From contig WFWP01000032.1 of the NCBI GenBank assembly GCA_015491055.1, positions 1 to 5,377 on the forward strand: DNA of 5,377 nt, in the 5' to 3' direction. The first letter of the stretch is position 1; each line of letters starts with the position of its first letter. This DNA comes from Patescibacteria group bacterium. Lineage in GTDB: Bacteria > Patescibacteriota > Minisyncoccia > Phycocordibacterales > UBA2100. The notes under the pieces are model-generated. The model saw only the letters and a program-made list of their open reading frames with translations. It searched no databases and was not told the DNA's origin. This document shows, piece after piece, positions 1,427-5,377 of the stretch. A program made the translations under genes and the position numbers.

Positions 1427-2398
1427 ATGGTTTTGACAGATGAAATTATATTGCATCTTTGCGCGGGCAAAGGTGGCGACGGTGTTGTAGCTTGGTACAA
1501 AAACAGAAGGAACCGCAAGGGTGGTCCCGCTGGCGGGGATGGCGGGAAAGGCGGAGATGTATTTTTGAGAGGTGTACGCCAAATTGATGTGTTGAGTAAA
1601 TATATGGGTAACAACACATTGAAAGCGCAAGATGGACAAAATGGAGGTAAACGCTCTTTGGAAGGGAAAAACGGAAGTGATTTATTTATAGATGTTCCCG
1701 TCGGATCTGTTATTTCAAATTTGAACAGTGGAGAGGTATATGAAATAACTCGCGAGAATGAACAAGTGAAAATATTATCCGGAGGCAAGGGTGGTTTTGG
1801 GAACGAACATTTTAAGAGTTCCAGAAATGTAACGCCGATGGAGTTTACATATGGTAAACCTGGCCAATGCGCAGATTTTAAAGTTGAATTAAGATTAATA
1901 GCGAATGCCGGTTTAATAGGGTTACCCAATGCGGGCAAATCATCTTTATTAAACGCCCTAACTCGCAGTAATGCAAAGGTGGGCAATTATGCATTCACTA
2001 CATTAAATCCAAATTTAGGTGTTATGGGAAGGTTTGTATTGGCAGACATACCCGGGTTAATAAAGGGAGCTTCGGAGGGTAGAGGGATAGGGCATAAATT
2101 TTTAAGGCATGTTATGCGTACGAATATACTGATACATTGCATCTCGGGTGAACGAGATGATGTTGTGTCAACATACAATTTGGTAAGGAAAGAACTTGAG
2201 AAATATGACGTTTCCTTATCTCGTAAGCCCGAGATAGTGGTTCTAACCAAAATTGATTTGTTAAGTAAAGACGAGATGCATGCAAAAATTGCCGCTCTAA
2301 AGAATATAAATTCGCAAATAGCGTATGTATCTATATTTGACGATGAATTGATGAACAAATTAAAAATTTTTCTTTGTAAAGAACTTGAATCATTCTGA
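1427..2398 (+). CDS. obg: GTPase Obg (CgtA/ObgE family)
   Basis: Obg is an essential ribosome-associated GTPase involved in maturation of the large subunit and in stress and growth control. The 323-residue protein has the glycine-rich Obg fold at about 1-157, with 'CAGKGGDGVVAW' (12-23), 'GGPAGGDGGKGGDV' (32-45) and 'GGKGGFGNEHF' (119-129). The GTPase domain follows: G1 P-loop GLPNAGKSS (165-173), G2/switch I 'FTTLNPNLGV' (190-199), G3/switch II 'DIPGLIKGASEGRGIGHKFL' (207-226), G4 TKID (274-277) and a degenerate G5 near 'VSIF' (301-304). G4 has Thr where most Obg proteins have Asn. The protein ends right after the GTPase domain, so the variable C-terminal extension of many longer homologues is absent. 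An in-frame TGA at 1406-1408 makes the ATG at 1427 the only reasonable start. No Shine-Dalgarno is visible. Confidence 0.97.
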   Translation: MVLTDEIILHLCAGKGGDGVVAWYKNRRNRKGGPAGGDGGKGGDVFLRGVRQIDVLSKYMGNNTLKAQDGQNGGKRSLEGKNGSDLFIDVPVGSVISNLNSGEVYEITRENEQVKILSGGKGGFGNEHFKSSRNVTPMEFTYGKPGQCADFKVELRLIANAGLIGLPNAGKSSLLNALTRSNAKVGNYAFTTLNPNLGVMGRFVLADIPGLIKGASEGRGIGHKFLRHVMRTNILIHCISGERDDVVSTYNLVRKELEKYDVSLSRKPEIVVLTKIDLLSKDEMHAKIAALKNINSQIAYVSIFDDELMNKLKIFLCKELESF

Positions 2399-2417: not shown

Positions 2418-2426
2418 TTATCCACA
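2418..2426 (+). promoter_or_regulatory. Exact DnaA-box sequence TTATCCACA
   Basis: The nine bases equal the consensus DnaA box of many bacteria and lie in the short gap between obg and the next gene, about 45 bases before its ATG. A near match, TTATCCACT (eight of nine), sits at 3550-3558 in the next gap. One exact copy does not make an origin, and no dnaA, dnaN or cluster of boxes is visible. A DnaA regulatory site or chance are the main alternatives. Confidence 0.3.
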
Positions 2427-2471: not shown

Positions 2472-3443
2472 ATGATCGTACAAGGGTTAAACTCGCATGA
2501 TTTAACATATGTCTCGAGTAGCCGAGCGGCAATGATAACGGGCTATAATAGAGATTATATAGGTCAGTTATGTAGAATGTCTACGATTGAATGTAAGCGT
2601 GTAGCGGGAGAATGGAGAGTTTATTTACCTTCAATTTTGGCGCATAAAAAACGATTTGGTATTGTGAATATTCCCAATTCGGACAACCTTAATAATGTTT
2701 CGGGCACCGTCTCGGTATCCGAGTTACATGGAACAAAGGGTGAAATGGCTGATATTATTGATGACAAATTTATCCCATCACAACTTGCTTCCAAATTAAC
2801 GGGATATTCACAGGATTATATAGGTCAACTTGCAAGATCGGGAGCGGTAAAGGCGAAGAAAGTGGGAAGGAAATGGTTTGTGGACGAAAACTCTTTGATT
2901 GAACATAAAAGGCGAAACGATGAACTGCTTGCATCTGTGCAAGCCGAGTCTGTTGGTGTGAAAAGAAATTTTACGCATAAAAATCAAGATGATGACAATA
3001 ATGTACAGATAAACAAAACTCGCAGCAATGCACTTTTGAAAGTAAAATACATGAAGGATGATGGTTGTCTGTTTCCAAATCCTGTCAAACATAATACGGG
3101 CAAAGGTGCGCGCGATGTAAGTGAAGCGCATCATGGTAACGGCTTAAGTGAGCATTATTCATATAACCGTAGAAATCGTGAACTGGTTCATAAAAAGACT
3201 TTTCCCGCAAAGGACAGAAGTGGGCATTTTGGTAGTGAGCAATTTTATGTACGCGACATAAACGGTACCGAGTGTGATTTACCGTTGTTTAATTTACAAA
3301 TGGCGGAATATATGGCATTAATCGTTTGTTTTATATCGGCAGTTTTGATAGGTTTGTCATTATTCTTGCCAAATTTGGTGGAAGAATACGGAAACTTCAT
3401 ACTCGATTCCGAATTTGCGGTTGATTTATTCAGTATATTTTGA
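2472..3443 (+). CDS. Membrane-anchored protein with two excisionase/MerR-like HTH domains
   Basis: The 323-residue product has two helix-turn-helix modules of the excisionase/MerR-like type (HTH_17 style), at about residues 12-61 and 100-148. Both carry GY-x-x-DYIGQL (24-33 and 111-120), followed by a basic strand-turn-strand (KRVAGEWRVYL; KKVGRKWFVDE) and a closing basic helix (LAHKKR; IEHKRR). A polar, low-complexity linker follows to about 275, then one strongly hydrophobic helix at 280-299 and a short acidic tail. The basic N-terminal part should be cytoplasmic and the tail outside. Family knowledge says such modules bind DNA; with the membrane anchor, this could be a tethered regulator or DNA-membrane link. 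A role in protein contacts is also possible. The ATG at 2472 is the first start after an in-frame TAA at 2460-2462. There is no Shine-Dalgarno. Its HTH resembles that of the next gene, suggesting a related pair. Confidence 0.85.
   Translation: MIVQGLNSHDLTYVSSSRAAMITGYNRDYIGQLCRMSTIECKRVAGEWRVYLPSILAHKKRFGIVNIPNSDNLNNVSGTVSVSELHGTKGEMADIIDDKFIPSQLASKLTGYSQDYIGQLARSGAVKAKKVGRKWFVDENSLIEHKRRNDELLASVQAESVGVKRNFTHKNQDDDNNVQINKTRSNALLKVKYMKDDGCLFPNPVKHNTGKGARDVSEAHHGNGLSEHYSYNRRNRELVHKKTFPAKDRSGHFGSEQFYVRDINGTECDLPLFNLQMAEYMALIVCFISAVLIGLSLFLPNLVEEYGNFILDSEFAVDLFSIF
2505..2915 (+). repeat. Internal duplication of the HTH module
   Basis: Codons 12-61 (2505-2654) and 100-148 (2769-2915) encode two copies of the same domain, 87 codons apart in register. 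The ten-residue core differs only as GYNRDYIGQL against GYSQDYIGQL, and 14 bases, GATTATATAGGTCA, are identical at 2553-2566 and 2814-2827. The flanks have diverged much more: copy 1 has CRMSTIECKRVAGEW where copy 2 has ARSGAVKAKKVGRKW. This indicates an old duplication with the core held by selection. Confidence 0.8.
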
Positions 3444-3541: not shown

Positions 3542-3575
3542 AAAGCGATTTATCCACTTACTTATCGTTTTTTTT
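3542..3575 (+). terminator. Terminator-like hairpin with eight-T tail
   Basis: AAAGCGAT at 3542-3549 can pair with ATCGTTTT at 3564-3571, including one G-T pair, around a 14-base loop; the T run extends from 3568 to 3575. The location, about 100 bases after the TGA at 3443 and just before the promoter of the next gene, suits a terminator separating the two transcription units. The large loop and short G-C part make it weak. The loop contains the near-DnaA-box TTATCCACT. Confidence 0.35.
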
Positions 3576-3600
3576 GCCATTACGATGTTAAACTTATACT
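3574..3600 (+). promoter_or_regulatory. Promoter candidate for the HTH-fibre gene
   Basis: TATACT at 3595-3600 is a five-of-six -10 box. TTGCCA at 3574-3579 is a five-of-six -35, but the spacer is short at 15 bases, the same spacing seen between TTGCAT and TATACT before the gene at 681. Transcription would begin near 3607, leaving about nine bases before the ATG at 3616. No strong Shine-Dalgarno is in that leader. Confidence 0.35.
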
Positions 3601-3615
3601 CAAGTATTTAGAGTT

Positions 3616-5377
3616 ATGAAAAAAAATTTCTCAAATAACAGAGACTATATACATATTGATGATGTTGGCGGAGAGTTTGGATATTCACGGGAATATGTGA
3701 GGAATTTGGCGCGCAAAGGATTGGTTAAGTCCGAGAGAAGCGTGAATGGTGAGATTTTTGTAGATAAAAAAGATTTGTTGTCTTTCGCAAGAAATCAATC
3801 GGTAGATACCGGCGCCAAACAGCACGCTCTTGCCAGTATGGTATATGGTTCAATGGGTACGGCAAATAAGCAAAACGGTTCCCGGTTAAACGCAGTGAAA
3901 TCAACACTTTCGTCCGGGTCGGGCTTGCATATGTCCGATGCGAAAAAATTATCGTCAAGTTCCGGTTCGGATACAGCGGTTAGGATGCAAAGTGTTGCAA
4001 AAGGGGGAACTTTTGGGAATATGGGACATGGCATATCCGCCGGGAGTCTTGCGCATAAGTCGGTCGCATTAATCACCGCCGTATCTATGGTTTTCGGATT
4101 GTATGCGGTTACTGATCCGAGTTACAGGCAATTTGTCAAAACCGAGGCGTACGATATTGCGAACTTGGCGTATGATACAACGTCGCTTGCATATGAAAGT
4201 GTGATAGACGGTATGGACACAATCATTAATGGCGCTCCCGCATTATTTAATGAATTTGGCAGAAGTGCTGCGTTGGCATTGCAAGGTATGCTTGGATTTG
4301 GCGCATCTGATGATCTCGGTTATCGGTCTTTATCCGATAAAGAAGATAATTACTTAATATTTTCAACGGATACTTCAAACATTTTTGGAGACATGTATTT
4401 CAGGTTATCATCCGGGTTTGATTGGTTAAAATCATTTTTCCACAAACCTGATGAAAATAAATTTGCATATGACATACCTTTTGACACAGAAATGCAGGAA
4501 GATTTCAGAGAATCGTATGCATTTAATGATAATAATTATTATGACTCCGAATATGTGTTTTATGATGAATATGAAGCGGCTGATGATTTATTTGCGGATG
4601 ATAAATCTGATACAAGTGACAAATATCCGAGCAAAGATTCGGAAACGCAAGAGGATTTGGAGTCCGATATTGAAGAAAAGGTGACAATTGTACGAGAAAT
4701 TCATACACGCGAGATCGTAAAAGAGGTTGTGCCGGAAGATAAGATTAGTGACATTATAGATCGTGAAATAGAATTACGGGGCATTGTTTCAAATGATAAT
4801 GAATTTAATAAGCAATTAGACGAGTCTTTGAGTGATCTTCGCAATGAACTGAAAACCGAGTTATTAGGTATCGTTAATGAAGATCGTAAAAACAGTGTAG
4901 CGATAAGTCCAATAGGAGCCCTTTCCCTGTCTCAGCGGATAGATACCTTGAATGATGTGGATTTTATCGATGGATATATACGAGAGTCCGTGATTAAAGA
5001 TTCTTCAATTTCAGGTTCCACCGGTAATTTTACTACTCTTTCGGTTAGTGGGCAAACCACATTGTCCATTATTGATGCGGACAGTTTGAAACTTAACAAT
5101 GGCCTAACCGTCATGGGCGGAAATGTTTCTCTTCCCGATAATTCCATAGAATCAAGTGAAATAACTGACGGTACAATTGCAACAGCAGATATGGCAGATG
5201 GCGCAATAACAAGCTCCAAGATTGCGGATGGAACAATTACAAATGCAGATATAGCAGATTCTGCCATCACAAGTGTCAAAATTGCAGACGGAACCGTGAC
5301 TTCAACAGACATCGCAGACGGCACGCTCACCAACGCTGACATCAGCGCAAGCGCAGGCATCGCATACTCTAAATTAA
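3616..5377 (+). CDS. Large surface fibre/adhesin-like protein with N-terminal HTH (partial)
   Basis: An open frame of 587 codons starts at ATG 3616, the first start after an in-frame TAA at 3589-3591, and leaves the window without a stop, so the C-terminus is missing. Residues 11-60 form a helix-turn-helix like the two in the preceding gene, with GYSREYVRNL at 22-31 and the strand 'GEIFVDKKDLL' at 45-55. A Ser/Gly/Lys-rich linker leads to one hydrophobic helix at about 149-165 (SVALITAVSMVFGLYAV). Then come a probable helical part to about 230, a very acidic Asp/Glu/Tyr-rich stretch (286-357), a probable coiled coil (375-425), a beta-type 'STGNFTTLSVSGQTTL' segment (468-483) and seven ten-residue repeats from 511. 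The charge pattern predicts the HTH inside and the long part outside the cell. Repeats of this style occur in phage-fibre-like and Patescibacteria surface proteins. Attachment or host contact is inferred; DNA binding is untested. Confidence 0.9.
   Translation, partial: MKKNFSNNRDYIHIDDVGGEFGYSREYVRNLARKGLVKSERSVNGEIFVDKKDLLSFARNQSVDTGAKQHALASMVYGSMGTANKQNGSRLNAVKSTLSSGSGLHMSDAKKLSSSSGSDTAVRMQSVAKGGTFGNMGHGISAGSLAHKSVALITAVSMVFGLYAVTDPSYRQFVKTEAYDIANLAYDTTSLAYESVIDGMDTIINGAPALFNEFGRSAALALQGMLGFGASDDLGYRSLSDKEDNYLIFSTDTSNIFGDMYFRLSSGFDWLKSFFHKPDENKFAYDIPFDTEMQEDFRESYAFNDNNYYDSEYVFYDEYEAADDLFADDKSDTSDKYPSKDSETQEDLESDIEEKVTIVREIHTREIVKEVVPEDKISDIIDREIELRGIVSNDNEFNKQLDESLSDLRNELKTELLGIVNEDRKNSVAISPIGALSLSQRIDTLNDVDFIDGYIRESVIKDSSISGSTGNFTTLSVSGQTTLSIIDADSLKLNNGLTVMGGNVSLPDNSIESSEITDGTIATADMADGAITSSKIADGTITNADIADSAITSVKIADGTVTSTDIADGTLTNADISASAGIAYSKL
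5146..5355 (+). repeat. Seven tandem 30-base / ten-residue repeats
   Basis: Codons 511-580 form seven units of exactly ten residues: IESSEITDGT, IATADMADGA, ITSSKIADGT, ITNADIADSA, ITSVKIADGT, VTSTDIADGT and LTNADISASA. The pattern is hydrophobic-T-x-x-x-I-A-D-G-T, as expected for a stacked beta-solenoid or fibre shaft. Units alternate K and D at the fifth position in part. The final residues GIAYSKL before the window edge look like a transition out of the array. At DNA level the units differ enough that the array is not a recent expansion. Confidence 0.9.

Follow-up and report, generated by a model that had tools for sequence, protein, structure and literature searches.

Can a structural surface protein be the transcription regulator of its own gene? 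The question is raised by contig WFWP01000032.1 of a Patescibacteria assembly (GCA_015491055.1; 469 kb, 80% complete), the whole 5377 bases of which were analysed and are referred to below as the window. Its + strand carries a TrpR-like gene (681), then obg (1427), a gene that we call the partner (2472) and a fibre gene (3616), whose frame joins a predicted helix-turn-helix (HTH) through a predicted membrane helix to a repeat shaft. The module is relevant to how Patescibacteria make and control structures touching other cells. Comparison with related genomes favours the view that HTH proteins held at the membrane, chiefly the partner, control the fibre gene, because a putative operator before the fibre genes of relatives is near-private to this locus and co-occurs with the partner.

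An HTH fused to a giant fibre

An earlier reading made from the letters of the window alone (the sequence-only reading) described an N-terminal excisionase/MerR-like HTH, a single membrane helix near residues 149-165, an acidic region and a repeat shaft in one frame, and this arrangement was confirmed. The winged HTH is predicted confidently (block-mean predicted local distance difference test, pLDDT, of 93-97 across residues 11-80) with the fold of BldC, Xis and MerR, and its structural matches include DNA complexes. The helix was recovered both by structure prediction and by hydropathy (Table 1). Of the families named for comparison, BldC and MerR were thus upheld as folds, whereas HTH_17 (PF12728) was not reached: against a gathering score of 27 bits the fibre HTH scored 14.8 and the window partner 20.4, while the partners of two relatives exceed it (29.6 and 38.8 bits).

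The fusion recurs in relatives. Residues 1-429, whole or in part, were matched at E<=0.01 in 31/98 related genomes (its own included), and one relative carries a complete frame of 4051 amino acids (aa) with HTH, hydrophobic segment and shaft repeats. A same-genus orthologue aligns with residues 3-233 and 322-568 of the window fibre, bases 4606-5346 included. At order level the N-terminal profile matched at E<=1e-6 in 119/247 genomes, many by the HTH alone, so that roughly one in two of the genomes sampled from this order has a relative of the HTH-helix module. Within 12 order-level loci chosen for their large frames, the HTH heads the frame in 12/12 with a hydropathy peak behind it (1.34-2.45; three <1.5), and five of the frames are complete at 2311-4377 aa. 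In 9 of the 12 stretches obg and/or gatB were found upstream, and secA is a frequent neighbour in relatives. The HTH-helix-fibre fusion is no assembly artefact, since single frames that are complete and reach 4377 codons contain it in relatives, and the search for the same domain order in relatives that the sequence-only reading had called for is answered.

That reading had also named a separate N-terminal gene in homologues as evidence against itself. Short HTH-helix stubs do stand behind the partner, in 6 of 79 loci recruited by the partner profile, alongside the many relatives in which the parts are fused. One of these stubs (L106:11546-12529, 327 aa) is accompanied by an operator-like site scoring 27.3 and is not followed by a fibre; at L127 and L132 the HTH-helix module lies away from large genes. 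The stubs and stand-alone modules suggest that module and fibre are separable units. Some genomes have two fibre genes, and frames that we take to be REP-type transposase-like lie beside or between these genes (L047:9250-9927, L098:12185-12862, L034:796-1488).

Basic residues are conserved in the fibre HTHs of 63 relatives: lysine or arginine occupies position 30 in 93%, 33 in 100%, 36 in 74%, 40 in 79% and 41 in 84%, and the net charge is above zero in 62/63. These positions sit around the predicted recognition helix and wing. From domain order and helix we infer a cytoplasmic HTH and an outside shaft, an arrangement that would suit a contact sensor, in which force or binding at the fibre passes via the helix to the HTH and alters gene expression. 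The domain order is also that of one-pass transmembrane regulators (PMC10269533).

An operator-like repeat before the fibre gene

A conserved element surrounds the putative -10 before the fibre genes of relatives: CCGAAATA-n-CTAG, TANNAT, then TAG-n-TAnnTCG. A matrix trained on the same 63 fibre upstream regions scores at least 13.4 in 41 of them, the best of 630 shuffles reaching 10.3; the operators of L065 and L089 score 47.2 and 38.4. The strict core pattern, CTAGTANNATN{1,2}TAGNTANNTCG, was run over 70 whole family genomes and gave 29 matches in 28 of them, against 0 for the reversed control; the other 42 genomes, the window's included, had no match. For the majority (26/29) an HTH frame begins 1-205 nt downstream; 23 of the 26 frames run off the fetched stretch and 3 are complete and short (236-303 aa). 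At L137 and L156 a gene of 162-163 aa, which we take to resemble the GxxExxY protein, is inserted between operator and fibre gene, with the fibre match following, and at L134 the match stands at a contig end, behind a partner gene. The element forms an imperfect inverted repeat over the putative -10, with arms complementary at a mean of 8.6/13 pairs (range 6-12, 29 sites). At the 9 left positions free of the pattern 5.2 are paired, versus 2.3 after shuffling of the left letters (highest among 2000 means, 3.1) and 1.2-2.8 when the arm was slid. Judged by its distribution, the repeat is nearly private to the fibre locus in relatives and behaves like a dedicated, putative operator.

Such confinement bears on the contact sensor. 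Over the 70 family genomes the strict pattern occurs at the fibre locus or, once, at a contig end behind a partner gene, so that a wider response regulon acting via this site was not seen, other site sequences not having been sought. We consider a contact sensor quite improbable.

The promoters themselves match a -35 no better than control positions do (mean 2.07/6 vs 2.46). This is as expected of activator-dependent promoters and brings in membrane capture with activation (transertion), by which the same HTHs at the same promoter would switch it on, with transcription, translation and export of the giant product at one membrane site; it differs from self-limiting control, set out below, in the sign of control alone. 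MerR-fold proteins are known activators, and secA often neighbours the locus. Repressor sites typically lie over the -10, and the position of the repeat, with its centre at the putative -10, counts against activation. A precedent in its favour is the building of a secretion system by regulators which, bound to the membrane, capture their target promoter there (PMC9977878). On balance we hold activation to be fairly unlikely.

The repeat occurs with the partner gene

The partner HTHs match the same folds as the fibre HTH (BldC/Xis/MerR). A build of two HTHs and a helix is common to partner relatives, and an ELxYxR-like tail at the C-terminus is frequent (35/48, loose pattern). A protein search with window fibre residues 1-260 gave no match at E<=0.001, and the partner was used as the query instead; it has 205 homologues, of which 120 were listed, P0002 being an identical copy recorded on a 39.5-kb contig. 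In 59 of the 79 partner-recruited loci an HTH gene lies within 1.3 kb downstream of the partner, and in 53 of the 59 this frame either has 450 aa or more or is truncated where the contig stops. The other 20 include 9 loci with no HTH gene though the contig continues and 5 whose contigs are too short; also among the 79 are 5 loci with a giant gene and no partner and 1 unclassified.

Co-occurrence of the operator with the partner was examined in 52 order-level loci (52 of 56 listed rows with frames of at least 500 aa outside the window's family), using a named looser pattern in place of a generic palindrome score. Loci were classed by script, 'no partner' meaning none within 1.6 kb in the stretch examined, and L187 was so classed with 0.7 kb of contig upstream. 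The looser element was found in 11/17 loci with a partner versus 1/35 without (Fisher 2e-6, a value that overstates independence since the genomes share ancestry), and its rate in shuffled copies of these stretches is ~0.02. The pattern was drawn up after seeing the first 12 loci, and the count is therefore also given without these prompting loci and two training-set duplicates: 6/11 versus 1/27 (p=0.001, likewise optimistic). Since partnerless loci keep a fibre HTH without the element, this distribution makes it more likely that the repeat is read by the partner than by the HTH of the fibre.

The sequence-only reading had proposed a one-component membrane regulator. The DNA-binding fold, the conserved basic residues and the operator-like repeat speak for it, but the partner, a tandem-HTH membrane protein which that reading overlooked, is the better DNA-binding candidate because it co-occurs with the operator. 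The same co-occurrence bears on a further alternative, that the HTH is an anchor linking the base of the fibre with the nucleoid or an inner-face protein, with no control of a promoter. Parallels for an anchor exist in RacA, which ties DNA to the pole, and in RodZ, whose HTH binds MreB and whose architecture is HTH_25, a membrane helix and DUF4115. A near-private inverted repeat that co-occurs with the partner would not be expected of an anchor, and neither HTH_25 nor DUF4115 was matched in Pfam at E<=1 in the fibre, the C-terminus of which is missing; the lack of a RodZ-type HTH_25 also counts against it. We regard an anchor as unlikely.

Proposed membrane-held control of the fibre gene

In the following scheme we infer binding, the direction of control and export. 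Partner and fibre HTHs would act from the membrane on the fibre gene's own promoter. Judging by size, the partner's tandem HTHs could read the two ~13-bp arms, one HTH each, and the promoter would thereby be held at the membrane, mostly shut. The fibre's own HTH would add feedback, every inserted fibre lowering further synthesis, and the outcome would be few very large fibres per cell. DnaA-box-like sites at a near-fixed upstream distance may couple firing with the replication cycle. We give slightly less than an even chance to self-limiting control of this kind, exerted from the membrane by the HTHs of partner and fibre. Its fullest form, a fibre that counts itself, is rather doubtful: DNA-reading heads and the two-headed partner would grip the fibre gene's own promoter and park the gene at the membrane, the gene's product would set the number of fibres, and DnaA would time the release.

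The DnaA-like boxes are of the form TTATCCACA, found in 27/63 fibre regions, in 0 of 30 rounds of shuffles and before 4/295 other genes of the same loci; TTATCC[AC]C[AT] is found in 43/63 fibre regions. In the 41 promoters with a core found, boxes of a looser form have their ends 39-41 bp upstream of it in 31 instances and 29-31 or 18 bp upstream in 15, positions about one helical turn apart. Exact TTATCCACA boxes also flank dnaA in two of five genomes compared (G000, G003) and lie ~0.6 kb from a dnaA match in a third (G014); none was near dnaA in the remaining two (G027, G031). Over whole genomes the counts of the box against its reversed pattern are 16:2 in G000, 12:4 in G003, 8:7 in G014, 7:3 in G027 and 8:4 in G031. 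Here dnaA was named by family search, and mraZ, rpoB and others by reading translations. Because other genes are also preceded by it, the box is, to judge from where it occurs, a wider promoter feature of these bacteria, and a DnaA regulon of this lineage is a possible explanation. Within G000 and G003 boxes lie at L175:12, 33 and 109, L178:1389 and 1465, L183:136 and L170:1699 and 1719, some of them ~35-50 bp before a -10-like hexamer.

Several observations weigh against self-limiting control from the membrane. The window's own fibre promoter lacks the operator, 370/1000 shuffles scoring as high, and its fibre HTH has N30, L36 and E40 where most relatives are basic (it is still basic at R29, R33, K34, K38 and R41). 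The positive-inside rule is clear for the partner (39/48) but not for the fibre (27/63). Among the first set of fibre regions 22/63 score under the best shuffle, and the repeat is imperfect, with a gap between the arms that varies by one base. The looser core, run over 297 order genomes, gave 21 matches; an HTH gene follows in 16, and in 14 of the 16 a further HTH frame stands upstream. Because 5/21 fall elsewhere and the reversed control gave 7, it carries little weight on its own. The generic palindrome score was insignificant in most of the 52 order-level loci and failed to separate them because it was not centred on the promoter. Lineages without a partner keep the HTH-helix-giant gene with the element mostly absent (1/35), so that the fibre HTH must do something else there. 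To these are added the shared ancestry behind the Fisher values, the absence of a -35, which would also fit activation, and the boxes near dnaA in 3/5 genomes, with 8 against 7 reversed in G014. An initial view of TTATCCACA as private to the fibre locus was dropped, since the box also stands before dnaA and other genes.

Window HTH and operator may have drifted together, and the functional argument therefore rests on relatives. The drift of both is also what a relic would show, the operator then serving an unrelated regulator and the fibre HTH being a cytoplasmic stop for export and nothing else. Most relatives keep the basic positions of the fibre HTH, and the operator co-occurs with the partner, which is an HTH protein too (co-occurrence of other genes was not examined); both speak against a relic, which we hold to be very improbable. 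The near-private operator offers a defined DNA-protein pair that is approachable in vitro with no culture of the organism, and it would answer whether a surface protein of structural role can regulate the transcription of its own gene.

Comparison with known systems

Transmembrane transcription regulators (TTRs) combine in one protein a DNA-binding domain and at least one transmembrane region, and the fibre protein has both by prediction; TTRs also regulate genes from the membrane in response to outside information, and on regulation the observation here is the operator-like repeat. Trans_reg_C, the Pfam name for the OmpR-type winged helix of ToxR and CadC, gave no match in Pfam at E<=1. As in these TTRs, the fibre protein joins a DNA-binding domain, a single helix and an outside part, and ~56% of TTRs are single-pass in a survey (PMC10269533). 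Unlike them, it has an HTH of the BldC/Xis/MerR fold and, as its outside part, a fibre of repeats that can extend to thousands of residues, and the candidate operator stands in front of the gene for the fibre. The VtrA/VtrC-VtrB system of Vibrio parahaemolyticus is similar in having two membrane-held HTH proteins, one on the other's promoter, and regulators tied to building a surface structure; there the regulators are separate from the structure (PMC9977878), whereas in our locus one of the two HTH proteins is the fibre itself.

The shaft of the window fibre matches phage tail-fibre families (phrog_892, E 1.4e-13, plus others, PHROG 28766 and 21412), and the likeness lies in the repeat sequence. 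In contrast to phage tail fibres, it belongs to a cellular locus (obg/gatB/secA) and bears an N-terminal HTH and membrane helix; its neighbours in the window are obg and the TrpR-like gene, not a phage genome. We know of no BldC, Xis, MerR or RacA fused to a membrane helix and fibre. Their HTHs (PDB 6ama, 4j2n, 5d8c, 5i44) share the predicted fold of each HTH described here. A literature search found no paper, by title or abstract start, on an HTH-membrane-fibre protein in Patescibacteria, and a regulator that is itself a giant fibre appears to be new within the literature searched.

Features of the window and minor observations

The features are collected in Table 1. The missing C-terminus of the fibre was sought in the same assembly, where the window itself was the sole match; a PDB sequence search gave no significant match and an NCBIfam search with the fibre protein no match.

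Table 1. Positions of genes, domains and promoter features in the window.
Feature	Position	Strand	Basis or remark
obg, conserved neighbour	1427..2398	+	relatives: obg and/or gatB, often secA
TTATCCACA box before partner gene	2418..2426	+	31 bp before TATAAT at 2458
Partner, 323 aa, two HTHs and C-terminal membrane helix	2472..3443	+	open reading frame, structure prediction
Partner HTH 1, residues 13-62	2508..2657	+	structure prediction
Partner HTH 2, residues 100-161	2769..2954	+	structure prediction; Pfam search
Partner membrane helix (predicted), residues 273-298	3288..3365	+	hydropathy; structure prediction
TTATCCACT box before fibre gene	3550..3558	+	36 bp before TATACT at 3595
Candidate -10 (TATACT) of fibre gene	3595..3600	+	relatives' inverted repeat not recognisable around it
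Fibre gene (HTH-membrane helix-fibre)	3616..5377	+	open reading frame of 587 codons, open at contig end
Winged HTH, residues 11-61	3646..3798	+	structure prediction; fold matches BldC, Xis, MerR
Linker, residues 62-141	3799..4038	+	long helix continues to residue 99, then low-confidence prediction
Predicted membrane helix, residues 142-166	4039..4113	+	hydropathy peak 149-167; structure prediction
Acidic region, residues 271-352	4426..4671	+	composition: 26 D/E vs 7 K/R
Possible coiled coil, residues 353-430	4672..4905	+	from sequence alone, not by coiled-coil program
Shaft, 10-residue repeats, residues 513-587	5152..5376	+	repeats continue off contig

Viral contigs scanned with the partner profile gave just one short partial match; L133:2-607, a short viral-contig frame, has a weak match to the partner HTH (27 bits). 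In seven loci (L108, L109, L113, L115, L118, L119 and L121, of which L115 and L118 are titled Taylorbacteria) the hydrophobic peak of the partner falls at about residue 198-291 with a longer part after it, and there is no HTH gene in the next 1.3 kb. In several loci (L065, L078, L105) a second short inverted repeat, TCGnGTnnnCGAAC-like, follows just after the operator and could be a 5' hairpin of the transcript.

Lastly, CCGAGA/TCTCGG boxes were found in 45/74 partner promoters, 11/63 fibre promoters and before 50/295 other genes, and in 19/35 partnerless giants and, where a partner precedes the fibre gene, in 0/17 fibre promoters; few copies of a stricter form occur per genome. Whichever HTH gene comes first in the locus often has them upstream, be it the partner (L065, L073, L074, L089) or the giant gene (L186, L189, L193, L225, L226), and the boxes may be an operator or, in part, gatB terminators.
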